Position numbers and translations under genes: made by a program. From positions 1 through 64,000 of the forward strand of contig JAULBX010025231.1 of assembly GCA_032358255.1 (NCBI GenBank): a DNA stretch of 64,000 nt. Direction: 5' to 3'. Positions 2,184-61,716 of the stretch are shown piece after piece. This stretch comes from Heterotrichella gracilis (lineage: Eukaryota > Sar > Xanthophyceae > Tribonematales > Xanthonemataceae). The notes beneath the pieces were generated by a model. The model saw only the letters and a list, made by a program, of their open reading frames with translations. It did not search any database and was not told where the DNA came from. Positions within the stretch are counted from its first letter, which is position 1. The number at the start of each line of letters is the position of its first letter.

Positions 2184-5100
2184 TTACAGCGCCACCTCCG
2201 CCATTTGATCCGTGCCGATTTCCCTCTCCTTCTTCCCCGCTTCCACATCCACCCCCTCAGGGACCCCCAGCGGCGCCCCATGTGCCAGCACCACCCCTTG
2301 GGTCACATGCATGCCCTCAATCACCACGCCATTCACCGCCAGGGGCTGGGGTCCCACAAGCGAGAAAAGCACCGGCATTACCATCAGCCCCACCAGCAGC
2401 GCGAAAACGATGGTGCCAAACAGCAGCTTGAAAAAGGTGCGCAGGATTGCCGAGGAGGCAAACGCAAGGGGGATGGTGCCCAGTAAGGCAGTCACTCCTC
2501 CCAGAAAGACAGCGGATCCTGTCTCAACAAGGGCGGTGGATGTGCGGCTGTTGCGGGTGCCGTCACCAGGTGTCATCATGAACTTTTGTGCAAAGTAGAC
2601 TGAGTAGTCGACCGCCAGGCCTGTGGCCATGATCATGTTGATGAGGGACACCTGCGGGGAGGTTGGGGATTATTTTAGGGTTTTGAATCTTATAGTATAT
2701 ACATTCTTCACTTGTTTAGCTTTTTTGTATTAAATGTGGGTGATGTTTTGACAAGCACCTCAAACAGTCTTATGAGCCCAGGTTGGCTCCCTAAATGTGA
2801 CTGTCAAATCAAATCTTGTAAATCTTGTAAATACACCCTTGCCCTGAGAATGGTTCCCTCCCCTCCTCACCTGGTTGAGCGTATGCCCAGTATCCACATC
2901 TCCCCAAACAGGAACAGATCCACAGATGCCACCGCACCCATCATGAGACAGTGATCAAAGGGTGCACCAGCCCAAGCACCCCCACACCTCCCAATGCACA
3001 GGTAACACACTCCCCTGGCACCCATCCACCCAAATTTCTCACCTGATTGAAGCGTATGCCCAGTATCCACATCTCCCCAAAGAGTAACAGATCCACAGAT
3101 GCCACCGCACCCATCATGAGCACAGTGGTCAAACGGTGCACCAGCCCAACCTCCACCACACCTGCCACTGCACACCTACCCCAATCCCCACCCAAATGAT
3201 GTGTACATGTCCTCCCCGCCTCACCTGGTTGAATCGTATCCCGAGTATCCACATCTCCCCAAAGAGGAACAGATCCACTGATGCCACCGCCCCCATCATC
3301 AGCACAGTGGTCAAGGGGTGCACCAGCATCAGCAGCATCACCACCCCCACACCCGCCACCGCAAATATGACGTACTCCCCTGCCATCCACCGCAGCACCT
3401 GGTCGCCCTCTGCATAAATGAGGTTACCTGCGCAAGGAATGGGGGCGGAACATGTCTTTAGGTCCTCATTTTGCCATTTGAGAAGAGTTTTTACCTAAGG
3501 CTTTGGTTTTGTAGGGTTGATGTCAAATTGACATCATGATGATCATTATACTGCAGATCAGCATGATACTGCATTTCAACTCTGAAGGGACATTGACCCT
3601 GTAGGCAGGGAAAAGATACAGGGGTAGGAGTGGGAGTGATATTGTGTTTTGCTCAACAACCTGCGGGATTGCTTGGCATGCATTGTTGTCACTCCGTATT
3701 GCATGCAGGATTTGCAAAGTGTGGGACAATGTTTTCTTGCCGCACGAAACCATTTTATTGTATTCCTGCAAAAACCCATTCAATTGGCAATGCAATGCAG
3801 AGTAACAACAATGCATGCCAAGTAATCCCATTCACTAATTCGATGGAGCTTTGAAAGATCATACCCTGCACACAATTGAATTAAATGTTGATGGTGTCGC
3901 AGGCTTGGTCTGTCACACCCGTATCCATATGTACAGGGCTGTTGCAAGGGGGTTGTCTTACCATTGTACACAAAGTAAACATCCTCGCCAGGGTAGGTCA
4001 CGTTTGCCCCCTTGTCAATGGCATCATTCTCCTGCCCAAAAGTGTTGCTGTTCACACTGTCCTCCACACCCCTGCACAGCGCACACAGGGCAGCATTTGA
4101 GCTCACCAGTGCTCTGCGTTCATACTGTAGAGATTGAGAGTTGCACACCATGGCATTAGGGCTTGGGATTGGACGTCAAGCATGTAGGGTCGAGGTGAGA
4201 GGGTTTTGCAGGCTCAGGCAGATGCCTCAAAAGCTGTGTTCAACTGGGTTTTTCAAAAGTATCAGTATTTAACACTGATGCTACTGCAGCATGTAATTCC
4301 TAGTACTTCACTGTGCACTGCTTCAAAGAATTCCCTCTGAAAAAATGCAGGCCCTCTTTTACCTCACAGCCTCTAATGCCCTCCTATTAAACGATCCTTG
4401 GCCCATGGATGCCACCAGAACAACTGAAACCCGCGAGGCCAGGATGGCCCCTGTGGTGTTGTCACGCACAAGGTCGTTGTTGTAGTTGGAGAAGGAGGGG
4501 AGGGAAATCCACTGCATGCACAGGTAATCAGGGGTCATGTTGAAGAAGAGGAGGGGTCATTTCACAGCCTACGGTGTGGCAGGGGTTGAAATAGGTGGGA
4601 AGTGACGCGGGCATTTGTTATGTTCCATATATTCTTCTGCCACACCAACAAAGGTTTTTTGCAAACGGCTAGCTCAGGATTTAAGCGCGGGTTCAAGGGT
4701 CTGGAAGACCCCATACCTACCTTGTTGAAAAGCGCGGGGAAAGCGTCTTTTGGCACGCATCCCTTGATTTCCACGGGGTAGGCAAGGGAGGCAATGGGTA
4801 CGCTACCCGAAGCAGAGGGGACGTCAAGGTAGGGGTTGTAGCACCCATCCCCGGTCAGCTGCACGCCTGTGGCAACATAAAAGAAAGCAAATATCAGATT
4901 CAATCAGAAAACAAGCAAATTTGACGACTAAAAATGCGCACTGAAGGGACTAGCAAAGAAAAGAGCATTGCCCTCTCCTAAACATCCCCCGCTATACCCT
5001 ACCTGTGGCGTTGGTTTGCACCCAGCCGATGAACTCCAGCAGCCAGTTCCCCTGGAACGCTGATAGGGTTTTGTTGAGGTAGGGGTTTGCCACTGTGGCA

Positions 5101-8100
5101 TTGAGGGCGTCGATCATGTGGGCTTGCTGCAGGGGGTCTGATTGGTCGATGTTGCGATAGTAGAGATCCAGATCATCACCCACTTGCTGATCGAAGGTGG
5201 CCTGCAAGAGGAGATAAGGCATTAAAAATTTGTGGATTGACTGAATGGTGTACATTGTATGTGTCAAGCACAGAGTTTGGGTTTGTTCAAACAGGTCTAG
5301 AGAACAAGGAATGTTTATTTGGTATATTTGGGTCCTTGCGTTAGTACAGGCTCACATCATCACCCACATGTTGATAAAAGGTGGCCTGCATGCACCAGTG
5401 GGGGTGGTGTGACCAGAGGTTTCAAAGGGAGAGATTGACATGATGCAACTTGCCGGGTTGTATTTTGAGGAAGGGTTGTCGTTGGGGTTTGCGTTGGACC
5501 TTGAACAGCTGGGAATAGGGCCGCAGGTGGCATTCACTGGCTGCCAGTTCCAATAGGATTTGATTTAGGGCTTTTCTCAGGGTTTATCAGGGTTTTGCGC
5601 CGCACCTTGACCAGCTTGGAATACGGCTGCAGGTAGGAGTCATCGGGGGCCAATTCCTCGATGGGCTGACCCTCCTCCAATTGGAAAATTCCAACCAGGC
5701 TGACCGCCACAAAGGCAGCAAAGGCCAGCAGGATTAGGCCCTTGGCAAATTTGTTGGTCACCAGGGGGGCGTAATAGCGGTCGAAAAAGGTGCGCACAGA
5801 GGCCGCCACCGAGAAGGGTTTCTTGGCGGGAAGGTGGGTGAAGTCCTGCAAAGAGTGTAGGTACATACTATTAAGATTCAAACCCAGGGTTTTCCTGCAT
5901 GTGCGCACAACGGCTGCCACTGAAAAAGGGTTTCTTTAGGGAGAGGAGGGGGGTGCTGCAAGTTGGCGCATTTTGCGGAAAGGGGGTTGTATTGCTCCCA
6001 TCATCTTCTGCTGCAAACATGTTTGAAATTCCCTGCTTGGGTTGAACTTCCTCCTACCTGTGGTGGTGCTCCCTGTGTCCCCCTTGCCCTGCGGGATGTG
6101 ACGCAACACAGGAGGTCCCATCGCCCCGCCTGAGCCCGGTTCTCATTCATCACCAGCAGCCCCAGGAAGAAAGTGCTCATGACCAGAAAGACACCGATGG
6201 TTGACAGGGTTGCATAGATTGCAAAGTAGGTGATGGAGGGCAGCCTGCGAGCGGAAAGTGGGGATTTTCAATTTGGTATCAAGCACAGGATGTCTGGAGT
6301 TTATATTTCAGGGTTTAGGGTTTTCTTTAAGCCAGCCCCATGAGGGGGCCCTGCAGCAGAGCCAGGAAAAAAGTACACACGAGGAGAAAGACACTGATGG
6401 TTGACAGGGTTGCGTAGATTGCAAAGTAGGTGATGGAGGGAAGCCTGCAAGCGGAAAGTGGGGGGTTTTAATTTGCTATCAAATACACGGGGTTTGGGGT
6501 TTATTTTTCAGGCTGTAGGGTGTAGGGTTTTCTTTAAGCCAGCCCCATGAGTGGGTCCTGCAGCAGTCCCAGGAAGAAAGTGCTCATGATTACAATGACA
6601 CCGATGGTTAATAGGGTGCGTAGATTGCAAGGTAGGCGATGGAGGGCAGCCTGCAAGCGGAAATGGAGTGTAAACAGGTATTAAAAGAGTCGTTTAGAGG
6701 GTTCAGGTTACAAGAAAATGAACCCCGCATGCTGTAGGACCAGGAAGGGCATGCGCATATCTTCACAGCACATCTCCCCCCACTTCCTCGGAAATGGTCC
6801 CCAGTGCAAATACCAGTGTCACCGCCACCGATAGACCAGCAGTGGCCATGAGGTGGCAGAACTGGTCGATCCTGTTCACGATCTAGGTTTTACATCCCAG
6901 AAATTTGCGCCCCCACATTACTTGGAATGTACAAGCACACGTCCCCATTTTTCATGTAATTTTACATCCCTCCACTTACTCGGAAATGGTCCCCAATGCA
7001 AACGCCAGGGTGGATGCCGCCAAGGTCACCGTCACTGATAGACCAGCGGTGGCCATGAGGTGGCGGAACTGGTCGATCCTGTCCACAATACCAGGCTGGT
7101 TCTCCTGAATGCTGTCATATGCCTTCACCAGGATGAACATCACATCCACCGCCACACCGAAAAGGATGTAGGGGAGGGTCTGCATGTAGGAACAGGAGGG
7201 GAGGAAGGAGTAGTTAGTACATCAGGGCAGGGCATGTGGCGGAGCGGCAAACCCTAAACCCTACCTCTTAAAACCTTAAGAACAGGGTCGAGAATGTTGG
7301 TCACATATTTCAAGGAAATGTATAATCTGCTGTAATAAATCTGGCAATGGGAATCTTAACCTTGAATTTCATCAACCTAAACGCTAACGGTTGCTGCTGG
7401 CATGGTCATGTGCAGCTTGGCAGTCGACACCTCACGGCGGCGTGGAATGCCATGGGCGGCAATGAGCGCAGTCAAAAATATTTTGAACATGCAACCCATT
7501 CTCCAGGGTTTTTTGGGATTCTCCAGGGTTTTTTGGTATCCCTGTTAGGAGCTGTGTTTACCTGCTGCAGTGTGGTGAAAGGCACTCCAAAAGACATGGA
7601 CAGGCCGTACCCCACCACCAGTGCCAGCACAGCACTGACCATACCCAGGAGGGCCAGGCTGGATCGGGTGAGCACTGCATCAGCCCTGCAAAAATTGGAA
7701 GACACTGTCTGAATCACGCCTTGATGTATTGTATTGCAATTGAAAGTCAACACATAAAAGTCACTGAAACAAAGGGTTGTGCAATGCATTGACACTGCTA
7801 GATATTGACAAGGCCGAGGTATCTGCAATAGTAGAGTTTTGAAGGAATTGCATCACAGTCAAAGTGCAGTTGCGTGCTGCGCAGGACAAACATTTGACAG
7901 GGCTAATGTGCATGGAGGGTTTTCGGCTAGGGTTTTAGGGGTCCAGGGTTTGCGCACTTTGACAGGAAGAGCACTGCCAGCAGCACGAATATGACCACAG
8001 CGATGGCGATCAGGTACAGATCAGCCGACACCGATCGCCCGATTTCATCATCCAATGACTTGTCACAGATGTAATCCAGCGTGGTGTAGGTGGTGTTGTC

Positions 8101-11100
8101 GTTGTAGTTCTCCATGAGGTCCAGAAAGCCATCGTACCTGCGCGACACAAGCCCTGGGATTTAACAACCCTCCATTAGGGTCCTCACGGATGCCTGGTCA
8201 CCACCTGACCACTTCAAGCGTGCCATCCTACCTCAAAATGAGCGCTGGGGTTTTAGGGTTCAATAACCCTACAATAGGGTCCCGAACCGCTTCCTGGTGT
8301 CGACTCCGAGCAAATGCCACCGGTTTGGGATGCGCGGTTTGGTGGCCAAACGTGCTCACCATGCATACTGCACATCCTCGGAGACCCCTGCAATATCCTT
8401 ACCATGCACTTTTATCCCTAAACCCTATCCCTGCATCCCCAAGTCACCCACTCGCTCACCATGCATCCCGCACATCCTTGGAGAAGGCTGCATCCAGGGC
8501 GTAGTCCACCGCAATGACCTGCACAGATGCCGGCGCCACTGAGTGATTGTAAGTAATTGGTACATAACAAAATAGACCAATATTCCACCCCTTCCTCACG
8601 ACAAACAACAGCTACATCATTTTGCAGGCACCTGAGGGTTCACCACCACTGGGCCATTACAATTAATTTGTATTACATTTACTCCAACTTTACTCTTGAT
8701 TTTATTACCATTTTTCATTACCAGTTCACATCTGTGCAGACGCCAGCGCCCACTGGATCTGACGTGACAGTCACCCCTCCGAAGATGGTCAGCGCATTGG
8801 ATGCCAACCCACGTGAAGGCTTTGCAAATGTATTTGCTACTACGGCTGTACTGCTAAAACGCATAGCACCGACTCAACACCCGACATGTAATCATTACCC
8901 ATATGTTTTCTACCTGTGCAGGCACCAGCCGCTGGGTGTGCTGTGACACTCACCCCTCCAAAGATGGTCAGCGCATTAAAGTAGTGCCCCAACCCATCTG
9001 AAGGCTTTGCAAGTGCGCCTGCTAATCTGGTTGTACAGCTAAAACCCACATCACCAACTTAACAGCTGATCAGTCGGATCAGGTTGACCAGCACCCATAT
9101 GTTTTTTACCTGTGCAGACGCCAGCGCCACCGGGTCTGGCGTGACGGTCACCCCTCCAAAGATAGTCAGCGCATTGGCCGCCGACCCGTCTGGAAAGGTG
9201 AGCGCGTTGACATCCACAATCAGCTGCGTGGTATTACCCTGTGTAGGGTTTGTGGCTGACCCTCCAACGCTGGTTAGGTAGGAGGGGAAGGACATGTTCC
9301 AGTAATTGAAGAACCTGGGGTGGGAGGGAAGGGTGGGGGGGTTAGAGAAGAAAAGTTGGGGAAAGAGGTGGTTTAGGGTTTAGGGTGTGGGTGGCTGACA
9401 ATTGGGGACAAGGGGGGGTACAATTGCTGGTGAGGGTGGGATTGCCAGCAGCAATTGTACCCCCTCTTGTCCAAGGTTAAGAGCCGGATGTTGCTGCCCA
9501 GCGTAAAGACGTAGAGGGTGTGTGTGCACAATCTGGCTGCACACAACATCACCACAGGGTTTACGTTTGCCCTAGTAGCGCAGGTCTGCCAAAACTGGTT
9601 GCGCAATTAGCGCAACCTATCAGTATATACTATATATCATATATATATACTATCATATATAATGCATTGCAGAGCTGCTGTTTATTGCTGTTTAGGATCT
9701 TAGTCTGTCTGCGTTTAGGGTGTATGTAGGGTTTAGGGTTTGCCACGCACCCATACTGGCTGCGCAGCCCATGAGCCCCCTTGTAGCGCTAATGGCTAGG
9801 ATTTGATCAAGGGTTTGTAGTGTAGGGTTTAGGGTTATGGGTTAGGGTTTTCCACTTACCCAAACTGGCTGCACAGCCCATCTGCCCCCTTGTAGCACAG
9901 GTCTGCATATGTGTAATTCTTCCCCTGGTAGATCCCCACCACGCCCCGCACAGCAGCGTCCAGCTGAAACAGCTCCCAGGTGACCTGCAATCACATGCTA
10001 CCACTTGTGATGATGTTGAATCGGTCAGTGATTGAGTTGGGATCAATGGTTGCGCACAGCGGCGTCCAGCCGAAAACAGCTCCCATGTACCCTGCAGAAT
10101 GCCCACATGGGAGCATATGCAATCAGATGCAACCAGCTGATTTGGACAACGGTGGATTGGTCCAAATCGAGGTATAATCATTGGGTGTGCCCATCATGCC
10201 CGCACAGAGGCATTCAGCTGAAACAGCTGGGGCCCAAGTGCCCTGAATTTAATGGCTCCATAAAGGTTGCGTGGAGATAGTCATATAAAAAGACTCAGAG
10301 GGAGACTACTTACCACTAACTGACATGGAAATGCACCACCAACTACCACTGAAACAACCCATGCAACACCTCTCACCGGCAGTTGGATTGCATTGTTGCC
10401 GTAGGTAGGCAGGTAAGCCGGCTTGACCGTTGCCAGGATCTGGGCATAGCCCGATGACGCACCAAAGTTGGTCTCGACCCAGTCTTTATCATCGAACGCC
10501 TGGGAGTTTTGTGGAACCCTGCGCAAGGGTTTCATGGGCACAAATTTGGCGCTGCAGAGTGCAAGTCCACGATGTAAGAGGATAGCCCAAATGCAGTATT
10601 GTGTGCCTCCCTGGATCTAGATAATAGGGTTTTTCAGGATCTTAGAAAAGCCCTAAAGTTGGTCGCGACCCAGTCTTTGTCGTTGAGCGCCTGGAAGTTT
10701 TAAGGAACCCTGCGCAAGGGTTTTTGATGGGTTTACGAGACCCTGCACACGGTTTCTCAGAATAGTATGGGGTTTTGTGTAGCGCAGCAACGCTGAACAG
10801 CTCTCCCTACATAAGATCGATATCAACAACCTCAGGAGCAGCACACATATCTGCATGCACTTGCAAAGCACAGGCCATGCTCAGGCATGCCTAGCTAGCA
10901 AGACAGGCTCCGCACCCCACTCATCACAGCTTGTCAGAGTTGCTCTCCATTCTAGAGGTAGTTAAGGGTTTAGGGTTTATGGTGTAGGGTCTAGGGCATG
11001 CAGTGGAGTGCACCCCACTCACCACAGCTTATTGGCGTTGTCCTCAATCCTGAAGTTTAGGGTTAAGGGATTAGGGTTTAGGGTGTAGGGCATGTAGTGG

Positions 11101-12115: not shown

Positions 12116-12119
12116 GTAT

Positions 12120-13575: not shown

Positions 13576-16500
13576 TGCTCATAGGTCACAAACGCGATGG
13601 CGATGGAGGGCACCACCTTGACGTAGTTGGGCCACAGGCCCTGCAGGGGGGGGAAAGGGGTGGGGTGGTCAGTGTAAAGGGGAGGGCGATGGGTGGCGTG
13701 GTAAAGTTACGCCGGGCTTTTCATTGTTATTCTGTATTGCCTTTGTGTGGAAGAGGGGTGGTAAAATACGGATTTGGTGGCGATGGAGGGGACAACATTG
13801 ACGTAGTTGGGCCACAGGCCCTGCAGGGGGGGGAAAGGGGTGGAGTGGTCAGTGTAACGGAGGGGAGAGGGTGTGGTGTGGTGTGTGGCATAGTTTGAAC
13901 CTAGACAGGAAGCATGGGAACACAAACTTAGTTGATCAACCCCTTCTTCCATGCATTGAGCCGGCGGCCACCGCCCGGTATGGCCAGGGGTGTAATCTTA
14001 TACGCCAGGACTTCCCATGATGTACAAAGCACCCCCTGAACTGTCTCAATGCAGCCCACCCACCTTAAACAACCCCTGGAACCCTAAACCCTAAGCACCC
14101 ACCTTGAACAGCGCCTGGAACCTTAAACCCTAAGCACCCACCTTGAACAGCGCCTGGAACCCTAAACCCTAAGCACCCACCTTGAACAGCGCCTTGAACC
14201 CCTCCTCCCGCGCAGTGCGCACAAAGCAGTCGGTCATGCCTCGGTAGGACACCGCACCCCCCGATATCTCAGAATGGAGCGCAGCAGCCCCCTGCCAGCC
14301 TGACACCTGGCGCACCACAAATACACTCAGGAAAATGATATAGTTTTATAACATCTTGACATGGGCTGAATTCAAGGAAACGGAGCACCTGACACCTCCA
14401 CAAACAAAGCTCATTGTAATAGAACATGCATTTATATCGCCACATGCAAGGCTGATTGCTCATCTGGCTTGTGTGCCGGAATGCATGCAATAATAATAAT
14501 AACAAGATAATGCATTTATAAACTACTCCCACCACCTGCCAACAGAACCTTCGCCCTGTCCCAAAACCCTACCACAACCCCATCGCATAGCACCTGGAAC
14601 CGCCGCCGCACCACGTTGAATGGGTAGGCCACCGTCTGCCCCGCACTTCCCGCCCACCGCCCCGCACCACCCCAACCCTAACCCAAATCCCAGACCCTAC
14701 GAAATCTGCACCATTACAGCCAACAGCATGTCAACACCACCTAAAACCCTAGCACAATTCCCCTGCAGCGCACCTGTAACCGCCGCCGCACCACGTCGAA
14801 TGGGTAGGCCACCGTCTGTCCCGCAGTGCCCGCCACCGCCCCGCATGCAAGCCGCGTCACCACTGACAGCTGTCGCTCATCCCGCATCTCTGCAGGAAGG
14901 GGATAGGAGGGGGTTATTGCACGTTTGAAAGTATGAAAATAATTTAATACTACGTGTTTGTCTTATCTCCTATTCTCATTGTTATACAGAGTCATCTCAA
15001 TCCGATCATCCGATACATATAATATTTTATTCTTCTAAGAGGACTATCAAGCAAGGCACCTGGCCACAGACAGCTGGCGCTTGTCTTGCATCTCTGCATG
15101 GAAAAGGAGGGGGGTGTCATTGCAAGAAAAAGGAAAGGATTAACAAATGTTCCTGTCGTGACACTGTCCATTGCTTCCATAATGTCATGACACCAATAAA
15201 TACCCTTTCTTCCCTCACGATGACCCGCGTGGCGTGCATATGGCTTTTCTCAGGGTTCCAATTAGGGTTTCAAGTAGGGTATCCCGCGCACCGTAGTGTA
15301 TGAGCAGCCAGTGCTTGAGCGTCTCGTACACCGCAAAGTTGAGGCCCATGTAGGGGACCACCCCGATGACGCTGGGCAGCCACCCCTTGTACAGCGCAAG
15401 CACCCCTTCCTCCCTCACAATCACCCGCGTGGCATGCAGGATGCCCCGGTACTGCTGGTTGGTGCCCTCCTGGACTGATAGCCTGCCGCGCACCTACACA
15501 TGTGGATGAGGACAAAGCTTAGGTGGGTGTTTTTTATGTCTGTGTGTGTATGGTGTGGGCAGGCTTATTGTGCAGATGGCGCGGGTAGTTGTATATATAT
15601 GTTTTCTTTTTTGCCAACGATGACCAGCGTGGCGTGCAGTATGCCCCGGTACTGCTGGTTGGTGCCCTCCTGGACCGACAGCCTGCCTCACACCTATACA
15701 GGGGGACGAGGAGGGTCCGTTGGGTATTTCCTTTGTGTGCCTGTGCCTGTGTGGGCGTGGGTCCAATACTGAGGGAGATATTGGGTGTGGGGGTAGCTTG
15801 CAAGCCCATTGGTGTGTTATACAATGGCCCGCGCGGCGTGCATGGTGCCCCAGTACTGTCAGTGTGTGCCCTCCTACACAGCCTGCCGAGACCTAGGGTC
15901 AAGGGGGTGGTGTGCAGGATTTGGGGCCTTTTTTGGGAGAGGATCATTGTGCAGGCGCCATGGGGCGCTTGCGTCGTGTGAAGGTGGCATGCATGCTGCC
16001 CCAGTACCAAACTCCCTGGAGTAACACCTGGCGTGCACGCACAGAAGGGGGTTCTGTAGGGTTTAGGGTTTCTTCCTGCGTAGGAAGGAAGACCCACTGG
16101 GAGGGGAGGATACTGGCTTTGCACAAAAAGTAGTGTTTTTTTCTGCAGGGGTGCAGGCTTGCCTGGTTTAGGGTTTTTAGGTACTGCCGGTGGGTGCCCT
16201 CTTGGACCGAAAGCCTGCCACGCACCTAAACAGGGGAAACAGGTGGTGTCAATGTGGATGCAATGCAATCATTCAGGGGTGCCGGCAGCAATCTTTTTGT
16301 CTGCAGCAGGTTTTCAATTTTTTAAAAATAATTGGAAGTAAAAACGCTGTAGACTTCATGACCAGTTGTAATGCTTTGCAAAGAGCCTATTGTTCATTTC
16401 CTCCCCCTGCACCATGTCCAGCGGGAACGTCGCCGACATGCCGATGATCCCCGCAATGGCGCCCACTGTGCGCTGCAGAAACGGTGCCAATCACTTGCTT

Positions 16501-19038
16501 CAAGCAGACAATCGCCTGTTCCCCTGGCATTGAACTAAGGCATTTTTCAACGGGGTCTGCAGGGTTCAGGCAGGGTTTTTGTAGGGTTTCTGCTTCGCAC
16601 CATGTCCAGCGGGTAGGTCGCCGACATTCCGATGATCCCAGCAATGGCGCCCGCCGTGAGCCGCAGGAAGGGCGTCATCTGGCCATCCCCCCCGTGCTGC
16701 CGCATCTCGTAGGAAATCAACCTGCAGGCATGCAGTGGCACCATTTGTTCCCCCTTCTCACATGGGACACATGCCCTGGTCAAGCGCGGCCCGGATGCCA
16801 TTGCATGGTCAGGGCTTGTCAAGGTCAGAGGCAGGGGTGCTGAGCGGCGCAGCCTGTGCCAGGGAAGGGCGCCATGTCATTTGGCCGCCACCCCCGTGCT
16901 GCCGCACCTAGTAGGAAATCAACCTACAGGCATGCCACGTCGGGGTCACGGCAGCGTCTAAGGCCTGTTGTGCGGCTGGATGTGTGGCGGTGATTGGGCG
17001 GTTATTAGGGCTGGCGCAGGGCTGTGCACCCAGGGGCGGTGTGATTCAGGGTTGTGCGCATGGCAGGGCATAGGGGGCACCGCGCTGTAGGGAGGCCCAG
17101 TGAAACATGGGCTGATCTCGCGATTCCACGATTTAGCTGCGTTGACACCGCCAGTGCAAAGACGGTATAAGCACTGCCAAGGTGGTTATACCCAGGCAGG
17201 GATGGTTGGCAGTGCCTATAGTGCACGACATGTTGGACAGTGTGCACCATGTGCATTAGTACTAATCTAGCTGCACCTTTGCATTTCTGGAACGCATGAA
17301 AGGAAGGAAGGAAGCAAGTGCAGCAGGGTTTTGCCGCCTACCCACCTAATGAGCAGTTCATATGCCAGGAACTTAATTGCCAAGTTGGGCACGATGCAAT
17401 CGGTGCCTAATCGCCCTTGAACACGCTTCGGGGGTTCTGAGATAAGGTGTGTGCAGCGCATTCTGTCCCATCTGGTGAGCCCCTCGTGGAGTTTTAGGGT
17501 TTAGCGTTTAGGGTTTTAGGGCTTTGCCAGCGCCCTGCACCACCTGGTGAGCCCTTCACTGGAGTTTTAGGGGTTAGGGTCTTGCCAGCGCGCAGCAGCT
17601 TACCTGGTGAGCTGCTCGTAGGTCAGGAACTTGATTGCAGAGTTTGGCACAATGCGAATGCAGTTGGCGCCGTTTGCCCTTGAAGATGCCGCGCATGATT
17701 TAGGGTTTAGGGTTTAGGGCTTGTGCAGTGCACCCAACCCGATGAGGTGCTCCTAGGGTACATGGCTTAGGGTTTTGCCAGCGCGCCGCGCCTCACCTGG
17801 TAAGCTGCTCGTAGGTCAGGAACTTGATTGCAGAGTTGGGAACAATCCGAATGCAGTTGGCGCCATTTCCCTTGAACATGCCGCGCAGCCCCTCCTTCTT
17901 AGCCATGTGCATGAGGCCCTGCGTGCAGGAACAAAACCCTAAGCCTCGTGCCCTGAACCCTAGAAATGGTACATGCCGCGCAGCCCCTCCTCCTTAGCCG
18001 TGTGCATGAGGCCCTGCATGCAGGAAGCCCGGGGGCATCACAAGCCAATGTGGCCCTTGCCCCTGTCCCTTGCTTTGCTTGTATATAAACCTATACCCTG
18101 AATTCTAGGGCCTAGCCACGCACCTGTTATACCAGGTATACGCATATGCATACGCATTCTCCTGCCCAGGCCATTGAAACCCTAGACCCCGCACCCTAGC
18201 CCTCACCCCTGTAAAACACCCCCTGAGTAACCCTGCACCCAGAACCCTAGACCTTAGGTCCACACCTGCCACACCCCTGTGTAGACCTTCTCCTTGCCCT
18301 GCACCTGCATCAGGAGCTAGGGCCAGGTCCAAAACCCTAGATTGTACGGCGTAAACCCTAGACCCAGAAACCCTAGACCCTAGGTGCGCACCTGCCACAC
18401 CCCTGTGTACACCTTCTCCTTGCCCTGCACCTGCATCAGGATCTTGAGGCGCTCTAGGGGAGCAACAGCAGTGCGGGAGCTGCAGGGGAGGAAATGGGAG
18501 GGGATGAGTGAACACCTTGCAACAGCAGTGCGGGAGCTGCAGGGGAGGTGATGGGGGAACAGATAAGTAAACATAGTAAGTGACCACGTATCCTGTCCAA
18601 TAGATACATTGGGCGGGAAGGTGTGGGAGGGGGGGGGTCAAAGTAGCAAAGGGCCGACTTCCAGCACTGGCGGAGGCTGCGCCATGGCTATGGATGCATG
18701 TGGGAGTGCATGTCCGTGGTGGTTGCGGTACCCATATGTAAAGCGCCCCTTGCCCCTCCCCCAACTGCCACCAGGGACTAAACACTGCGTTTTAAGTGGT
18801 GCCACACACCGCATACCCGGGTGAGCGGTGTAGGGTTTAGGATGCTACAGTGGCAGGCCTGTGAATGCTCCATCACTGATGGCATCAGCTGTGAATGTTA
18901 GCATTTTGGGGTGGGTGGAGGGTTGCAGGGGTTGTGGTGTACGTACAGTCCGCCCGCCACTCCACCCGCTACCAGAGACTTGAAGACTGCGTTCCATGAC
19001 AGGGCGCGCTGCTTGGGGTTGGTTTTGTCTTCAGGCAT
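13530..19038 (-). CDS. ADNT1: mitochondrial adenine nucleotide transporter, ADNT1-like (8 exons, 325 aa)
   Basis: Exons (minus): 19038-18947, 18479-18392, 17918-17797, 16721-16601, 15493-15292, 14889-14774, 14306-14181, 13640-13530, in total 978 nt with a TGA stop. Three mitochondrial-carrier repeats are visible, each with a PxD/ExxK/R signature: PLERLK (about 38-43), PLDMVR (138-143), PFDVVR (238-243). Segments such as FKGNGANCIRIVPNSAIKF, GWLPSVIGVVPYMGLNF and the end GVELRISSS match the plant ADNT1 group, which exchanges AMP or ADP for matrix ATP across the inner mitochondrial membrane. No EF-hand extension is seen, so it is not the calcium-regulated ATP-Mg/Pi carrier. The Met at 19038 was taken as start; an upstream 5' exon cannot be excluded. 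Exon 5 uses a TAG acceptor. Nearly every exon has decayed edge copies in its introns. Confidence 0.93.
13765..13830 (-). repeat. decayed copy of ADNT1 exon 8 start
   Basis: This block repeats the acceptor and first codons of exon 8 (GLWPNYV, then VPSIA), about 175 bp upstream in gene sense, together with the same poly-C tract. Confidence 0.8.
14058..14193 (-). repeat. 39-bp tandem array at the exon 7 donor of ADNT1
   Basis: Four units start at 14061, 14100, 14139 and 14178. Each unit holds the end of exon 7 (codons for ALFK), the donor GTGGGTGC, a CCCTAAA-type motif and, in most units, a CAG triplet (the first unit is more divergent and its CAG is altered). The unit length is 39 bp, a multiple of three. 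The unit joined to the body of exon 7 is the one ending at 14181. Confidence 0.9.
14585..14670 (-). repeat. decayed copy of ADNT1 exon 6 end
   Basis: It repeats the exon 6 end with its donor and the codons for QTVAYPFDVVRRR, with indels, about 180 bp downstream in gene sense. A further copy of the exon 6 start (RDERQLSV region) lies near 15045-15105. Confidence 0.8.
15600..16235 (-). repeat. several decayed copies of ADNT1 exon 5 start
   Basis: Blocks near 15610-15695, 15825-15895, 15975-16030 and 16170-16230 repeat the start of exon 5 (RGRLSVQEGTNQQY with its acceptor) to varying extents. The block at 16170-16230 is best preserved and even keeps an acceptor, so it could act as a decoy exon. 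Confidence 0.8.
16395..16930 (-). repeat. decayed copies of both ADNT1 exon 4 edges
   Basis: A copy of the exon 4 end (IIGMSATYPLDM) lies near 16400-16470, and a copy of its start (ISYEMRQHGG) near 16860-16930. The real exon is 16601-16721. Confidence 0.8.
17320..18020 (-). repeat. decayed copies of ADNT1 exon 3
   Basis: Around the real exon (17797-17918) are partial copies near 17330-17440, 17590-17700 and 17965-18020. They carry variants of NCIRIVPNSAIKFLTYEQL or of GLMHMAKKEGLRG, separated by TTTAGGG motifs. Internal stops and indels mark them as relics. Confidence 0.85.
18255..18565 (-). repeat. decayed copies of ADNT1 exon 2 edges
   Basis: A copy of the exon 2 end (VYTGVWQ region) lies near 18260-18320. 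A copy of its start, with acceptor and the codons SRTAVA, lies near 18520-18560, about 58 bp before the true acceptor. Confidence 0.8.
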
Positions 19039-20499: not shown

Positions 20500-23400
20500 A
20501 TGCCTCACATATCGTATTACCGTAACTGTGAGTGGCGCACGCCTTCGCCTGACGAGTCGCCTGCAGCATGAACATGCACCTCCATTGTTTCACTTCCATA
20601 AGGCACATACACGGCTGCTTTGTAACTTACATCAATAACCAAACCCTTTTGTCCCTCCCAGACCTTAAAACTTTCCACCCAAGCACCTTACTGTCACCTG
20701 CAGCCTGCCATGCATCGCCCATCTGCACAACCACAGCTCTGGGTTGTAACCACACCAAAAACACTGAACCAACGCCTTTCTATCCTCCCCAGACGGTAAG
20801 ACCTTCAAGAAGCCACGTCGTCCCTTCGAGAAGGAGCGCCTGGATGGCGAGCTGAAGCTGGTGGGCGAGTTCGGCCTCCGCAATAAGCGCGAGCTATGGC
20901 GCGTGCAGATGGTTCTGTCCAAGATCCGCAAGTCAGCCCGTACCCTGCTCACCCTCGATGACAAGGACGCCAAGCGCATCTTCGAGGGGGAGGCGCTGCT
21001 GAGGCGCATGTACAAGTATGGCCTCCTGGACGAGCAGCAAAACAAGCTTGATTACGTGCTGGCACTGACGCCCCAGGACTTCCTGGAGAGGCGCCTCCAG
21101 ACGCTGGTGTTCAAGCTGGGCCTCGCCAAGAGCATCCACCACGCGCGCGTGCTCATCAGGCAGCGCCACATCAGGTGGGTGGGGGGGAATGGGTGGTAGA
21201 AGTGAGATGGTGCACTGGGCATTGGGGAAGTGCATTTCATGGTGGTGGGAAGCAGGGAACCCTATCGCAGACCCTAGTGTTCAAAGGGTGGGTCTGGCTA
21301 AGAGCATTTACCGCGCGCGTGTGCTCAGCAGGCAGCGCCACATCAGGTGGGTGGGGTGGGATACGGCGGTGGGGTGGGGTGGGGGATACATGGTGGCAAG
21401 GAGGGTGGCTGCGGTATTCAGACTGGGGGTGAGGGTGGGTGGCGAGCATACTCCAGGTGTGCGCGCTGATGAGGCAGAGGGGCATCTGGGGCCTGGGACA
21501 GGGGGTAACGCCACTATAAGACGAAGACAATGCAGTGCAGCAGCACCCATGCAGCCAGTAAAACCAGGGCAAAGTGTGGAGTATGCATCTGGCAGTCACA
21601 ATGGAGGCGCGTGCTAACAGCAAAGAATCCTAGCATTGCCAGCCAGCGGCCAAGCGCCGTGTGGCACAGCACAGGTACCCAGCCGGTGTGGTTGTGGGTG
21701 TGGCTATGCGGCGGTTTGATGGGCCGGCGCGGTGGTGTGCGTGGGTCAGCGACCATGCCTCAGTTCCAGGGAACGTGGCTGCTCCTTATGGTAGGAACCG
21801 CTGGGCGGGTATGCAGTAGGGGTACAAGTGGAAAGCAACCTGGTGGCGAGGGGGCAATCCAGCTGTAGCCTGAAACATTGGAGCACCAGGTGACTGGACA
21901 ATGGTAAATAGACTGGACATTCAGTGCGTGCAGCCGGAGCAGTGCGCGATGCCATTTAGCAACGAGAGCACGTGTGCACACTGTTTAGGGTGTAGGATTT
22001 TAGGGTTTAGGATTTTTTTCAGCAACGAGTGCACGTGTGCACAGCCGCCCATGTGGCAGGTGGGTGCTGAGTATGGCGTAGCGGCCACTCCACGTCCATT
22101 GCGCTTGGTTGGTGGTCGCAGCCGTTGTTGAGCGGATAGCGGGATGCAGCCTGGACTGTATTCATCACAGCACACAGCCACTGGGAACCACGCTGCGCCA
22201 CCTACAGCAGCATACCAGCCGGCAACAAGGTTTCAACCAAAGGCAGTGGGCAAGCATCTGGTTTGACCTTATTGGTGGCTAGCCAAGTGTGGGGATTGGG
22301 GTTTTGAACAATTTCGGGTCGGATTTTTGGGGGCAGGTACACCCAGCGCGCGCCTGTCCATGGGTGGCTATTGAGGCACAGGCAGAACAGCCCCGAGGCA
22401 CAGGCGAATCAGCCGACGGGTTGCATGTGGGGGTGGGGGTTTGATGGGTTGGTTGACGGGGCTTAGCAGCAAAATGTGGGCGAGCAGATTGTAAACATTC
22501 CCTCCTTCCTGGCGCATGCAGCCAGAACCCTAAACCCTAGTAACTAAACCCTAAACCCTTGGTGCCGCAGGGTGGGCAAGCAGATTGTGAACATCACCTC
22601 CTTCCTGGCGCTTGTAGCCAGAACCCTAAACACCAGTCACTAAACCCTAAACCCTTGGTGCCGCAGGGTGGGCAAGCAGATTGTGAACATCCCCTCCTTC
22701 CTGGTGCGCGTCGACAGCCAGAAGCACATCGACTTCGCCCTCAACAGCCCCTTCGGCGGCGGCAGGGCGGGGCGCAACAAGCGCAGGTCACAGAAGTGAG
22801 TGGAACCCTAGACCCCAAAACCCTGCATCACAGAAGCGAGCGGAAACCCTAGGCACTAAACCTAAAATCTGAAATTGTGGACAGCCTGAAGCACACCGAC
22901 TTTGCGCTCAACAGCCCCTTAGGTAGCGGCAGGGTGGGGTGCAACAAGGTCACAGAAGTTTGTAAAATTTCAAATCCCTAAAGTTTTGAGCACAGGAAAG
23001 GAGTGTGACTTTTAGCCCACAACCCTAACACCGCAAACCCTAAGCATATTGAATCGTCCCCTTGTGAGGTGTAGGTCTGGGCACAACCAGCGCAGGTCAC
23101 AGAAGTGCACAAAACCCTAACGTGTAAAACCCTAATATTGGACCTAAGCGCGGTGCTTTGTGAACCGTAGTGTTTGGACCTATGCACCTCATTTTGTGCC
23201 CTTTGACAGAGGCAGGGTGGGCGGGTAATTGCTGGCAAAAAGTGTGTTGTGTATCCGATCTATCAGGTGTTTTGGGCAGGCCACAGCATTTGGTTTCAAT
23301 GTGTCTGTGCACCCATCGTGCATGCATGCAGCAGTGCCACTGTTGTTTTCCATGTCAGTAAATTACAAGTACAGTGAGCAGTATTCTCCGACAGTCTAAT

Positions 23401-28924: not shown

Positions 28925-31900
28925 ATGGGTTTTCGGGAGGCGTGCAAGGGGGTGTGGACGGGGTACCTAGGGGGGATGGCGCGCGTGGTGGCGATCATCG
29001 CAAGGGGGATGGGAGGGCTGGGCGCCTTGACAGCCCGCAGGCCCAAGACTGTGGTGTGCATCAGCCTGGTGGCGGCCCTGGCGTGCGGGCTAGGGTTTCT
29101 CACCTTCCAGACTGAGAACAACTCTGACAAGCTGTGGTGAGTGGGGTGCATTCCATTAAATTCTTCTATATTGCATGCCCTACACCCTAAGCTATAAATC
29201 CTACACAAATGGAGAACCATGCCTAGGCTAACTACACACACGTCATGGTGTTGACCTCGCCTTATTTCAGGATCGTACCATCCAGAAAATAAAACCCTTT
29301 TTCAAGATACCAGAATCCCAACAAAACTCTGCATGGGATTCACAGGTTCACAGACTCACAGGGTTAAATCCCACCGATCCCGTTGAAACCCTGTTATTTG
29401 CTATATTTGTGCAGGTTTCCCCAAAACTCCCAAGCGTTCATGGATAAGGACTGGGTGGAAGCTAATTTTGGTGCATCAGCGGGCTTTGCCCAGGTTTTGG
29501 CGACTGTCACACCAGCTTACTTGGCAACCTATGGGAACAACGCCATCCAGCTACCGGTGAGTGGTGCTGCGCCCTAAACCCTGATGCATAAACCCTAAAC
29601 CCTAAACCCCGAACCTACATAACCTAAATGACAAAAGAAACAAACAGAGGTCCAAAACCTGAACCACACTGGGTAATCTGTCAATCAGTGACAACAGGTT
29701 GCAGGTCATATGGGAGCTGTTTCAGCTGGACGCGAACGCTTCCGATTGCTTTAGACTGCATGCGATCATACACAATTGCCTATGATCACATCTGATCCCA
29801 CGTGGGCATTGGGCAGGTCACTTGAGAGCTGTTCCAGCTGGATCTCGATGTGCACAACCAATGGATCAAACAATCATTATTAATCCAGCATCATCAAAAA
29901 TGATTGCATCCGATTGCATGTGATTCAGGTCACATGGGAGCTGTTTCAGCTGGACGCCGCTGTGCGGGGCGTGGTGGGGATCTACCAGGGGGTAAATTAC
30001 ACGTATGCAGACCTGTGCTACAAGGGGGCTAATGGATTGTGCAGCCAGTTTGGGTGCGTGGCAAACCCTGAACCACAAATTCCAATATGGGTGCGTGGTC
30101 AACCTTCAAATTACTCTAAACCCTAAACAGCAGCAGTGCAAAGATATATGATGTGTGTCCGATGTTGGTGCGTTGTAGCACCCCAGTAGGGTTTGGGTTT
30201 TGGCAATACCATGCAGCTGACCGTGGAAGCCAATGCTCTCGCCTTTAAGGAGGACCCCACTCCACTCACTATTGAAGCCCTACCTCCCACCCCAGGTTCT
30301 TCAACTATTGGAACATGTCCTTCCCCTCCTACCTGGCCAGCATGGGAGGGTCAGCCACAAACCCTACCCAGGGTAATGCCACGCAGCTGATCGTGGATGT
30401 GAATGCGCTCACATTCCCAGACGGGTCTGCAGCCAATGCGCTTACTATCTTTCGAGGGGTAACTGTCACTTCAGACCCGGTGGCGCTGGTGACTGCACAG
30501 GTAAGGAAAAAAAAAGTTTTTAGATTTTAGGTTTCGCTTGACATTACTTTCAAGGAGCCAGTCCAAGTAGTCCAAGCTCAAAACAACTGAAATTGACTAC
30601 AAAAGGTTGATGTTATACGGGATTCCTTTTGTCTTCTATTTCTTTCTTCTAACCTGACAACTTGCTATCTTTACTTTCAAGACCAGTGGCGCTGGCAGCT
30701 GTGCAGGTGATTGCGGTCGACTACGCCCTTGATTCAGCCTTCTCCAAAGATGTGCGAGATGCATGGTGAGTGAGTGGGTGAATGGGGCACAGCGCCTAGG
30801 GATTGAACACTGGGTCTGGAGGCATTTGTCCACCCATATGGTGGATATATGTGTTAGGGTTTGTGGCCCTCATGGAAAACCCTACACCCAGTGGCTTGCA
30901 CCCAGATACCCTTGTCTTAGATACGATGGCTCTGGACCTCATGGAAAACAATCAGAAATGAAATATAGTGTATACCCATGTACCCTTATACCCTTGTCTA
31001 CATACCCTTGTCTATATACCCTTGTACCCTGATACCCTGATACCCTTGTTTACAGGTATGATAGCTTTCTGGACCTCATGGAAAACTACAATGACAACAC
31101 CACCTACACCACGCTGCCAGCAATCGGATTACATCTGCGACAAGTCGTTGGCTGATGAAGTTGGCCGATCGGTCTCGGCTGATCTGTACCTGATCGCAAT
31201 CGCTGTGGTCATATTCGTGCTGCTGGCAGTGCTCTTCCTGTCAAAGTGAGCAAAACCCTAGCCAAAACCCTCCATTCGCATGATGCACAACAGCACTGAC
31301 AACCGTTTGGCTTGCGCAGCCCGCAACTTTTTGCTTTTGTTGCAGACCTGCCCTCTAGCAATGCTTGTAGATCCAGATGCGAATGCCATGTCAGACTTTT
31401 GCCTTGGATTCCACCACATATTTTCATGGCTTTTAATCGCTTTCAGCCTACAAAACAGCAATACTATGATTGGGCCGTTGTCTGCCCGCGTTTTTTGCAG
31501 GGCTGATGCTGTGCTCACCCGATCCATCCTGGCCCTTCTGGGCATGGCTGGTGCAGCAGCTGTGCGTATCTACAGGTTATATAAAGTGTGAACATGCTGC
31601 AAAATAGCAGGGCAAAGCTACGCTTACCCAATACTACGAGGGTAACGAGGGGCAGATTCTGTGCTTACATAATGCTGTGCTGGGCTTATGGTTGTTGATG
31701 TTTGCAGGGCCGATGCAGTGCTCACCAGATCCAGCCTGGCACTGCTTGGCATGGTCAGTGCTGTGCTGGCGCTGGTGGTGGGGTATGGACTGTCCATGGC
31801 TTTCGGGGTGCCTTTCACCACAATGCAGCAGGTGCGCTGGTAACAAAAACCCTGGCCAGGGTATCACGGTATTACCCCAAATACCTGTCTGCGTTTCCTG

Positions 31901-51585: not shown

Positions 51586-51587
51586 GA

Positions 51588-58100: not shown

Positions 58101-61100
58101 CAACCATTGTGGGGGTACTATAAGGGTGTGTTATGTAAACCAATGTGGGGGGCAAATGTGCGTTGTTTTGCAGCCAACTTTTGCGCATTTTTGGCCCTAA
58201 TGCCCTCGCCCATCGGGTCGACACAGCTCTGGCGCAGCTGGTCCATGAGCCCTGTGGGATGAATTGCAGGGCATTATACAATGGGGTTTTAAGCAACCAT
58301 TGTGTGTGTGGGAGTGTAATGTCCAGAGCGCAGGGTTTCCAGGTTAAAGGCTTTCGGGTGCAGGGCTTCAGGCTTTTGAGCATAAGCATCCGTCTGCACC
58401 ATCGCCATTTTGGACCCCCCTCTACCCCCCCTCAAAGCGCAGCGTGTTCATGGGCGCAGGGTACATAGCGGTGTTTTTTTTGGGAGTGTAGGGTTTCAGA
58501 GCGCAGGGTTAGGTCCTAGGGTTTAAATTCTTGGACCATATTCTGCGCCATGGCCGTCTTGGACACCTCACTCGCAAAGCGCAGCGTGTTAGTGTAGAAG
58601 CGGCACACACAGGGTGCAGGATTAAGGGTTTTTGGGTTTCAAAGCGCAGGGCTTCAAGGTTGGAACTTTCAATGCTTCGTTTTACACGCACCCGCCTGCG
58701 CCGTCGCCATCTTGGACTCCTCACTCGCAAACCGCAGCATGTTGGTGTAGAAGCGTCACACGTTGGTCTGCACAGAGTCCCCGTCACCCGAAAACTCCTT
58801 ATCCCCCTGCTCCTCGGCCTCTGGCTTCCTTTTAGGTCCTGTCCCAGACTCCTGTAGACACAAAAGCGTAGACTTTCACTTTTGTATGTGGGTTTGTGGG
58901 TGGGGGGGGTGGGGGGTGTGGAGGATGGGGGGCCATTGGCGTATGGCCTTTTACATCCATATAACGATTATGAGTGTCAACGCTTACATGCTTTATGGAA
59001 TGTCACGAGTGCACTGTTGAGAGAACAGTAATGAAACGCAAAGGCCTGTGATGGTATGTCTAGGCCCTGCATTCCCGACGCTAGTCCAGTACCAATAGTA
59101 GAAACAGGTGGTGCTTGGCAATGATGGGCACAATTACAATTTCCACGAGGGACCACAAGAAAACATGTGCAAGCCCGCCTTTAGTCACAGTTAGTTACAT
59201 GCATTCCAGCAACACAGCCAGATATGCAAGCCTGGTGTAAGTCTATGCGATGTGATGATATGCGATGATATGTGATGATATGCGATGTGATGATATGCAA
59301 GGCAAATTTAGGCCCCCAATCCTGCCTCGATCCCTTTCCAACATGCAATGATATGGGGATGCAAGTTGGGATTCCGCACCAGATTTGGGGACAGGTAGTG
59401 CTTGGCGATGATGGGCGCAATTTTGGTCTCCAGGGGGGACCACAAGGAAACATTTGCAAGCCTGATGTACCATGATGCAATGTGATGATATGAGAGGCAA
59501 ATTTGGGCCCCCAATCCTGCTTTGATCCCATACCAACATGCAATGAAATGGGGATGCAATTGGGGATTCCCTACCAGATTTAAGGACAGGTAGTGCTTGG
59601 CGATGATGGGCGCAATTTTGGTCTCCAGCAGGGGGTGCGCCCCCACGCAATTGTACGCATTTGCACACATGCTGACCACCCGCCCGCAGATCATTTGGCC
59701 CTGGTCGCTGCGCCGCCCCTTGCCGTACAGCTCAAAGTAGCTCTGGCCCCACTTGTGCCTGAGTAAAGGCATTTAACTTGTAATACTACTTGAAGTTAAT
59801 CCATTTTTCCATTATTTAATGACATTTAAAAATGTTTTGATTTCAATAGAGTTTGGCCCTGGTCGCTGCGCCACCTCTTGCCGTACAGCTCAAAATAGCT
59901 CTGGCCTGAAAACAATTACAAGCATTTGTATTGCACATGTTTTTAGACCATGAAATATATTAATAAAGAGTGGTCCTGGTCGCTCCGCTGCCCCATGAAG
60001 CTCTAGCCGACGTGCCTGAATACAATATACAGATACATTGTGAATTTAACATAAATTTAGTTAACACCGCCCTGAGACTATACAGCATTAACATCAATTG
60101 TGCCTATATACCAAAATAAAAAATATGCTATATGATTGCTTATGTCACCACATTATTTGGCTTTACAATCTTGGTTGTATGGCATTTCCACCACGCTTTT
60201 GAAAAGCCCTCACACACGCATCTTCGCAACATACCCCCGCCTAGATGAAATTACATTAAATAATAAGTAAACAAACCTTTTAGATGATTTTTTTTTGGTT
60301 TACCTTGACATCAGCCCGTCCAGCATGGTCCCTGCGACTTAAAAGAGACCCCGCGCGTGCATCTCCTCATAGTACAACCCCTAAATTAGTCTACATAATC
60401 AAATAAAATAAAATAAACGAATAAACCTTGTAAATGAATACATATATTTGTTACCTTGGCATCAGCCCGTCCAGCATGGCCCCCGCGACTTTGAAGAGCC
60501 CCCGTGCGTGCATCTCGTCCAGATACCCCCCCGTAGTCCCTCATCTCAGCCAGGGCGCACATGGCCACCCGCCGCACGCTGTGGAACAAACATGGAGTCA
60601 TCGGATTGGATCAAATGAAATGATCTTGGATGATCATTGTAAGTGCATGCACCTCCTTGATACACCCCCCCTAGTCCCTCATCTCAGCCAGGGCGCACAT
60701 GGCCACCCGCCGCACGCTGTGGAACACATTTAATTCTACATCAGATCATTGTGGAAGAACAAAATTGGACTGCATTAGATTGGATTAGATTTATTATCTC
60801 CAATCCAATGGTGTCCACCGTAATGTACCCCCCATAGGTGCTCATTTCAGCCAGGGCGCATATGGCCACCCGCCGCACGCTGTGGAAGAATTCAATTGGA
60901 TTGCATTAGATCAGATCAAATCAGATCAGATTTAGAGTTCATTATACGAGACATCTTCCTCATGATATACCCCCCCTAGTTGCTCATCTCAGCCAGGGCG
61001 CACATGGCCACCCGCCGCACGCTGTGGAAGAATTCAATTGGATTGCATTAGATCAGATCAGATTAGATCAGATTTAGAGTTCATTATACGAGATATCTTC

Positions 61101-61716
61101 CTCATGATATACCCCCCCTAGTTGCTCATCCAAGCCAGGGCGCACATGGCCACCCGCCGCACGCTGTGGAAAACTAAAATGGGATTATGTTACATTGAAT
61201 CAGGTTGCAATTATCATATTGACTAAAATTCATTCCACCCACCAACCTTTGGAACACATAGCGCTCTTATGGACCAAGGATTGACACTGAAGTCCACTCC
61301 CTCACAACAGCGACAAAATGCCCGCAAAACCCCCCAAATGATCCAAAAACCTCCCCGAAACTCACAAAACAACGCAATCCAATTACCACAGTGCGTTCCC
61401 AAGCAACCCCCACTCACCTATGGAACAAATGGTGCTCCTTATGATCCAAGAAATTGGCGGTGGAATCCACCATAGATACGCCCACCACCTCATCTACCGC
61501 GCTTTTCGAGGTCGACAGAACGGCATTTGAGGGCCAATCAGAGGTCGCCAGCTGTACCAGGGTCTTAATTCCCCCCCGCTCCACGAATTTGGGGTCACAT
61601 TGGAACCCGAAATCGTTGGCCACTTTGTGCAGGACCAGGACCTTCTTCTTTGGGGTTTCGTTAGGGTCTCGGAGGGTGGCTAGGTAGCCCTTCCTGGCGG
61701 CGGAGAGGGTGGGGGG
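52137..61716 (-). CDS. TPR/helical-repeat protein of unknown function (12 exons seen, lesions present)
   Basis: Exons (minus): 61716-61418, 60578-60455, 59758-59575, 58851-58692, 58057-57964, 57511-57296, 56689-56622, 55857-55775, 55589-55415, 54645-54579, 53828-53550, 52298-52137. All phases fit between neighbours. The first four exons look alpha-helical, armadillo-like (VLHKVANDFGFQCDPKF, RRVAMCALAEMRDYG, KIAPIIAKHYLSLN). A TPR unit follows (ELRQQGNVAFKEGDLKRAI, LWNNRGLCYLRLGNHAR, DALIADPRNAKAWTRW). The C-terminal part (WIVQWADLALVDPE, VWGTPTASHVVQ, WNMRGYLGTIEVAMRRYGVR) is unknown to me and ends in an acidic tail. Lesions: TGA at 58758-58756 and near 56680, one extra G at 60542-60536, one base lost near 55490. 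The N-terminus is unresolved. It may be a young pseudogene. Confidence 0.6.
53340..53470 (-). repeat. decayed copy of the penultimate exon of the TPR gene
   Basis: The block repeats the exon 53550-53828 end (MAMAYPNPGFE, WNMRGYLG) about 205 bp downstream in gene sense. A copy of the exon start (CWIVQWADLALVDPE) lies at about 53955-54025, and a weak one at 54145-54190. Confidence 0.85.
54690..54875 (-). repeat. two decayed copies of the VTIARRIKP exon
   Basis: Blocks near 54705-54770 and 54825-54870 repeat exon 54579-54645 with its acceptor, separated by TTTAGGG tracts. Confidence 0.8.
55035..55290 (-). repeat. two decayed copies of the AYWKETQDPR exon end
   Basis: Blocks near 55035-55110 and 55225-55290 repeat the end of exon 55415-55589 and its donor. 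Both keep the codons for KETQD. They lie downstream of the real exon in gene sense. Confidence 0.8.
56459..56562. repeat. CCA/CCG trinucleotide microsatellite
   Basis: About 100 bp of CCACCACCG-type repeats inside the intron between exons 7 and 8 of the TPR gene. On the gene strand it reads GGT/GGC repeats and follows a GTGGGTG donor-like site. Confidence 0.9.
57236..57290. repeat. CCA microsatellite next to the TPR exon donor
   Basis: On the gene strand, GGT-type repeats begin within ten bases after the donor of exon 57511-57296. Confidence 0.9.
57828..57963. repeat. CCA/CCG microsatellite next to an exon donor
   Basis: On the gene strand, GGTGGC-type repeats start directly at the donor of exon 58057-57964, whose first intron bases are GTGGGTGG. 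Confidence 0.9.
58390..58610 (-). repeat. decayed copies of the FYTNMLRFASEE exon end
   Basis: Two copies near 58395-58460 and 58535-58605 repeat the end of exon 58692-58851. The better one has TGC at the codon where the real exon has TGA. A copy of the next exon (DQLRQSCVDPM) lies at 58190-58255. Confidence 0.8.
59065..59480 (-). repeat. decayed copies of the KIAPIIAKHYL exon end
   Basis: Copies near 59070-59160 and 59385-59470 repeat the end of exon 59575-59758 and part of the following intron, including long intron blocks around 59300-59345 and 59500-59545. GATGATATG microrepeats fill 59247-59305. Confidence 0.8.
60640..61175 (-). repeat. four-copy array of the RRVAMCALAEM exon start
   Basis: Copies with intact acceptors lie near 60665-60725, 60830-60890, 60965-61030 and 61105-61170; the real exon is 60455-60578. 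Three of the four have TAG where the real exon has TAC. The last two units, about 140 bp each, are almost the same and include a GATCAGATCA-rich intron part. Confidence 0.9.

Follow-up and report, generated by a model that had tools for sequence, protein, structure and literature searches.

How introns lengthen without transposons has, to our knowledge, been little explained. Vaughn and Bennetzen reportedly described, in 2014, small tandem duplications that come from fill-in repair of breaks. Among the closest systems in the literature are the small tandem duplications that Schimmel et al. (2021, PMC8355091) trace to fill-in at breaks, the interstitial telomeres of the horse, with plain duplication of the flank at 3 of 66 loci (PMC7215372), and the potato RdRp gene, in which a tandem duplication spanning the border between intron and exon yielded a new spliced intron (PMC4974935). 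Here we analyse the first 64,000 bases (the window) of contig JAULBX010025231.1 of the alga Heterotrichella gracilis, whose genome comprises 68.5 megabases in 903 contigs. The edges of exons in this window are found again as copies in the adjoining introns. These copies are real and extend past the window; they are short, lie on the same strand, straddle exon-intron borders and occur in many of the sampled genes. We tentatively propose that they stem from recurrent copying anchored at splice junctions, in which an exon piece of typically 30–100 nucleotides (nt), together with the first few intron nucleotides, would be placed in that intron, preferably at about 100 or 190 base pairs (bp). Introns would thereby lengthen quantum by quantum, the step being dictated by chromatin, and fill with decoy splice sites, a reading that we regard as plausible, if somewhat short of probable. 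In a search that covered mostly open literature, screened by title and opening of the abstract, no description of a dense genome-wide pattern of exon-edge copies was found.

Self-comparison of the window by BLAST (basic local alignment search tool; E 1e-4, matches unmerged) yielded 67 same-strand matches within 1.5 kilobases (kb) and a single inverted one. The genome-scale question was sampled with 20 ten-kb stretches chosen by place and with a single protein family (Cpn60/TCP1, ten loci); every stretch lies on a contig that carries a triple telomere motif once or more, and their positions are arbitrary, not random. They contain 92 same-strand matches and no inverted match, and 16 of the 20 have at least one pair at an offset of 300 bp or less. 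The window is denser: its 64 kb hold 61 pairs, and the 20 stretches together hold 68. Over 303,152 bases, 229 direct and 8 inverted near matches were counted (unmerged, at least 38 bits, members of arrays being counted more than once), and merging of near same-strand matches gave 154 pairs. Seven telomere-seeded loci (L001-L005, L007 and L008) are included in these last two counts, and also in the offset mixture, the sense-strand motif counts, the GC and telomere content of the copied segment (A) and of the spacer between the members of a pair (X), and the permutation of X over 115 pairs. They are excluded from the telomere-like fractions in spacers, the pair counts in the stretches, the exon-edge shift tests, the junction-anchor counts, the reading of pyrimidines and decoys, and the permutation over 106 pairs.

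The Cpn60/TCP1 family was picked before the repeats were examined; Cpn60 matches fell on 14 contigs, of which 10 were used. For its ten loci a GT-AG model was obtained for 41 introns, 8 of the 49 exon gaps having no splice model. At a score of at least 32, 7 of the 41 introns hold a copy of the adjoining 80 bases (end or start) of their own flanking exon, against 0 of 1486 swapped comparisons and 0 of 41 comparisons with the reverse complement of the own exons. Five donor edges and three acceptor edges are represented, and the youngest copy (in locus L039) consists of 58 bases, namely 54 of exon followed by GTGG, with 98.3% identity at a distance of 113 bases. The seven introns with copies measure 273–552 bp, against a mean of 248 bp for the 34 without. 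GT or AG is kept in five of seven decoys that were read, and by eye GT is retained in 12 of 19 listed donor decoys. The preliminary description of this DNA had taken the copies for a property of the genome rather than of one gene, one that lengthens introns and leaves many decoy splice sites; the counts in the stretches and the self-alignment of introns against their exons with controls, run here on samples, bear this out. One Cpn60-like frame (G000:C409:167489-168649) contains one in-frame TGA.

The usual form of a pair is A-X-A', that is, the copy is set off by a non-homologous spacer and does not follow head-to-tail. Among the 154 pairs, the spacer exceeds 20 bp in 113 and measures 6–20 bp in 9; it is 5 bp or less in just 32, and simple tandem duplication is thus not supported as the chief form, contrary to what had been supposed. 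Homology beyond A was undetectable on either side in 61 of 70 pairs with a spacer of at least 40 bp, including pairs of 95–97% identity. Eleven young spacers, two of them from telomere-seeded loci, were compared with the genome as one joined query in which best candidates only were scored; they returned self-matches only, except for those of L028 (three partial places) and L021 (one local), and the spacer of the youngest pair (L039) has no second match in the genome. The GC content is 0.59–0.61 in A against 0.46–0.49 in X. A single family of transposable elements was considered as the source of the spacers and rejected, as the spacers tested have no or hardly any second match in the genome.

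Two further features were, like the unique spacer, absent from the preliminary description. First, the net step (A+X) is bimodal, at about 100 and 190 bp. A mixture fit to the 150 pairs with offsets below 300 bp gave modes of 99 and 190 bp; one mode was rejected (p below 1 in 500) and two were accepted (p 0.43). When X was permuted among 115 spaced pairs, the share of steps at 130–159 bp went from 7.8% observed to 18.7%, and only 1 of 1000 permutations was as low; without the telomere-seeded loci (106 pairs) none of 1000 was. As permuting X fills the valley, the bimodality belongs to A+X in true pairing, and the lengths of A and X are coupled.

Secondly, the copies end preferentially just past predicted splice junctions. 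Junctions were placed from codon usage (a table of 2436 codons from five of these loci) and splice signals, which was possible in 53 of 108 spaced pairs (26 donors and 27 acceptors; 55 without). In 31 of these 53 pairs (58%) the copy's intron-side end falls 0–19 nt beyond the junction, and in 5 (9%) it falls inside the exon, against 22% (maximum of 40 runs 41%) and 41%, respectively, in a local-shift control; among pairs of at least 90% identity, 9 of 15 ends lie at 0–19 nt. A coarser test of overlap with exon edges gave a 2.3-fold excess with shifts over the whole sequence; with local shifts the excess is 1.9–2.5 fold in pairs of at least 90% identity. Slower decay of exon copies was rejected as the whole explanation, because random tracts implanted in Cpn60/TCP1 genes and subjected to unequal decay gave 21% at 0–19 nt and 40% inside exons, against the observed 58% and 9%.

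The telomere-type motif CCCTAAA/TTTAGGG occurs genome-wide as 834 exact triple repeats, the reversed control giving 0. In spacers of 21–80 bp the telomere-like fraction is 0.194, against 0.031 in flanks of equal length (p 6.6e-6; 21 of 48 pairs higher, 3 lower), and four control motifs reach 0.018–0.033 in these spacers. The motif itself is carried by 21 of the 48 pairs with spacers of 21–80 bp and by 16 of 50 with spacers of 81–200 bp. The earlier statement that each duplicated unit commonly carries TTTAGGG/CCCTAAA is to be qualified: the telomere-like DNA peaks in the short spacers, and the copies beside these contain some as well.

Within the window, exon-edge copies are readable in both Patched/MMPL paralogs, a mitochondrial-carrier gene and RPS9. 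The Patched genes being paralogs (exon matches mostly 80–95% identical), the copies concern five gene families and not six unrelated genes, as first described; moreover, the match in the 'tail-anchor' gene is weak (26540-26640 against 26612-26718, 67.6%, 36.5 bits, with some 13–17 exon bases each by eye), and the gene name 'TPR' is unconfirmed. No protein family was assigned to the 'TPR' and 'tail-anchor' pieces that were queried.

By eye comparison of the tables, in which older copies may have decayed beyond recognition, five exons have copies in paralog 1 only (minus strand). These are exon ~3225-3427, whose end followed by GTGAG stands twice, as donor-side copies, in the downstream intron at 2866..3172, with no counterpart found at the matching paralog-2 exon (~36407-36621); exon ~6979-7180, with a donor-side copy at 6775..6882 in which GT has become GG, none being found in paralog 2; exon 9106-9327, with copies at 8732..8977, again with none found in paralog 2; exon 10363-10526, with a partial copy at 10655..10723; and exon 11092-11321, with copies of its edge at 10912..11060 in a unit with TTTAGGG-like DNA. 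The exons at ~31698 and 31053 have copies in paralog 2 only, and three exons have them in both. The presence of different copies at homologous exons implies that copying recurs, in agreement with the preliminary description. Other copies on the minus strand are an old acceptor-side copy from the paralog-1 exon starting at ~5201 (5336..5390), a donor-side copy from the exon ending at ~5606, with telomere-like DNA between the copies (5484..5551), and two acceptor-side copies with a unit of ~200 bp upstream of the exon starting at ~6244 (6354..6663). On the plus strand, paralog 2 has a copy ahead of exon 31698-31833 (31494..31547), an acceptor-side copy ahead of the exon starting at ~32625 (32440..32537) and two acceptor-side copies with a 198-bp unit ahead of the exon starting at ~33835 (33395..33834), for which paralog 1 has one older copy. 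A 136-bp intron of paralog 1 (4867-5002, minus strand), with GCCACAG at both ends, is missing from paralog 2 (~34031, plus strand). A Patched exon fragment at 37792-37973, 92% identical to 33844-34025 and 3.9 kb distant from it, has no evident splice sites or intron flank.

The mitochondrial-carrier gene (PF00153, E 1.5e-77; formerly labelled ADNT1), whose protein gave no match to phage records, carries its copies on the minus strand. On the acceptor side these are a copy of the last exon (13778..13882), three copies from the exon starting at ~15493 (15617..16236), a copy at 16863..16935 and one with a telomere-like spacer (17971..18026). Donor-side copies lie at 14560..14666, at 16409..16484, at 17500..17695 (source exon ending at ~17797, with telomere-like DNA adjoining) and at 18229..18318 (telomere-like spacer). 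A 39-bp array at 14057..14165 consists of the exon end plus GTGGGTGC, linked by TTAGGGTTTAGGG. RPS9 (PF00163 and PF01479, with 40S uS4/S9 chains, the top ones probably from plants, as best PDB matches) has, on the plus strand, a donor-side copy from the exon ending at ~21174 (21268..21362), two acceptor-side copies with a 96-bp unit containing CCCTAAA ahead of the exon starting at ~22667 (22476..22666), and a copy of the end of its last exon past the stop codon (22877..22959). From this last copy, an adjoining splice site is seemingly not needed in every case. On the sense strand of the window genes counted, CCCTAAA exceeds TTTAGGG strongly in four of five; the respective counts are 49/10 and 54/13 in the two Patched genes, 31/7 in RPS9 and 28/24 in the carrier gene.

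In the region earlier called 'TPR', a 62-bp piece occurs five times at steps of 138–163 bp (60527..61173, minus strand). A 152-bp array elsewhere in the window encloses a gap of 100 N (51935-52034). The sole clear interspersed family among the matches between loci is a dispersed repeat of ~110 bp, present in both orientations at 27457-27577, 56086-56188 and 59182-59229 of the window, at L011:30-136 and L026:2017-2136, and also in L009, L010, L012, L019 and L020.

As for the mechanism, we would suggest, slightly more hesitantly than the reading given at the outset, break repair by out-of-register copying with borders set by chromatin. A break in an intron would be repaired by copying from the same locus or the sister chromatid, with the template offset by roughly the length of a nucleosome repeat or half that length. 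Copying back to the break would leave an exact tandem repeat, and an early stop followed by end joining would leave A-X-A'. The tract may halt just past the splice junction, perhaps at the edge of an exon-bound nucleosome or at the border between GC-rich exon and AT-rich intron. Telomere-like DNA present at the break or close to it, as a repair insertion or a fragile site, would give the peak of density in short spacers. Selection would purge copies that fall inside exons, and intronic copies would persist, lengthen the intron and decay.

Several observations weigh against this proposal. The autocorrelation of AT content has no bump at 190 bp, and hence gives no independent sign of nucleosome phasing; the 100-bp mode, moreover, is not a whole nucleosome repeat. 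The comparison covers one genome, and with it only the duplicated state of each copied site; pairs within one gene are not independent. In the coarser test with local shifts the exon-edge excess stays below 2-fold when all pairs are taken (1.7–1.9 fold), and it is about 1 (no excess) in pairs below 80% identity. Spacers of 81–200 bp show no telomeric effect (0.052 against 0.033 in flanks, p 0.12); in spacers of 21–80 bp one control motif differs from its flanks with p 0.039, at 0.025 of bases, and another with p 0.055. The copies flanking short spacers (up to 45 bp) themselves contain telomere-like DNA (0.077–0.096), and for exact 7-mers the fractions in A (0.048) and in spacers (0.058) are close, against 0.019 overall. 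Finally, the pyrimidine content in 16 acceptor pairs (0.560 against 0.562) does not separate X as old intron from X as new filler, nor do the lengths of seven introns after subtraction separate native-X and filler models.

The rival that survives best, though we hold it to be rather unlikely, is fill-in of staggered breaks, in which two nicks on opposite strands would leave long overhangs; both would be filled in and linked through filler, in many cases telomeric, to yield A-filler-A', and selection alone would make exon edges stand out. Telomeric junctions and the density of telomere-like DNA in short spacers are explained in this way, and the 39-bp array linked by TTAGGGTTTAGGG fits it too, as do horse interstitial telomeres at staggered breaks with flank duplication (PMC7215372) and the fill-in duplications described at break sites (PMC8355091). 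It predicts, however, that A and filler have independent lengths, whereas A+X is bimodal in true pairing only, and random cuts would not cluster ends at 0–19 nt past junctions. We consider it improbable that tandem duplication is random everywhere and that exon-edge pairs are merely recognisable for longer, their exon member being conserved. Slower decay of exon copies may indeed account for the excess of 1.7–1.9 fold with local shifts, but that excess does not weaken among the pairs of highest identity, and the implant-and-decay simulation largely contradicts this explanation. More doubtful still is a function of the copies as decoys for exon definition or splice sites, or as poison exons, with borders fixed by selection: the borders take in splice signals and GT or AG is kept in five of seven decoys read, but some decoys have frameshifts or broken splice sites, they differ between the Patched paralogs, and one lies past the RPS9 stop codon. 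Insertion of mobile elements such as introners, with long target duplications, is very improbable; introners occur in algae and tend toward predicted nucleosome linkers, but the repeats flanking them are given as 3–9 bp (PMC9860276), and among the spacers tested X is not a family. Least credible of all is an assembly artefact, to which the gap inside an array might point, since the copies mostly differ by 2–30% with indels, pairs recur in most of the stretches and hardly any tested spacer has a second match.

The preliminary description had also pointed to a model in which introns are born when AG|GT-containing segments are duplicated. The signature of this Rogers model, an intron start like the next exon start and an intron end like the previous exon end, is not clearly above control in the 41 introns: three pass a cut-off passed by 3.2% of controls, and one passes a cut-off passed by 0.27%. 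Intron gain of this type was rejected as a general feature.

This genome shows steps of intron growth of widely differing age, whose length can be measured and which have an anchor at the splice site, and control of the size of intron growth by chromatin thereby becomes open to direct test. Its many decoy splice sites also offer a natural experiment on the choice of the correct site by the spliceosome.

Compared with the described systems, the copies share with introners a genome-scale change of introns that includes algal hosts. Introners, however, are repeated families with near-identical intron copies at many loci (PMC9860276), while the tested spacers are unique or nearly so. In potato RdRp, too, the duplicated segment extends across the 3' splice site of an intron that was already there, but that is one case with a new spliced intron (PMC4974935), and here there are many copies and no sign of a new intron. 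Interstitial telomeric sequences, with telomeric DNA at a junction and direct duplication of the flank (PMC7215372), have a partial counterpart here; duplication is the main feature, and the motif accompanies 21 of the 48 pairs with spacers of 21–80 bp, with no enrichment for spacers of 81–200 bp (16 of 50 pairs). The fill-in duplications (PMC8355091) are similarly short, local and same-strand, as are the 229 direct against 8 inverted matches. Fill-in would be expected to leave copies side by side, or with filler whose length varies independently, in contrast to the coupled lengths of A and X; most of our copies are spaced (113 of 154 by more than 20 bp), their net length is bimodal, and their ends cluster just past predicted splice junctions.

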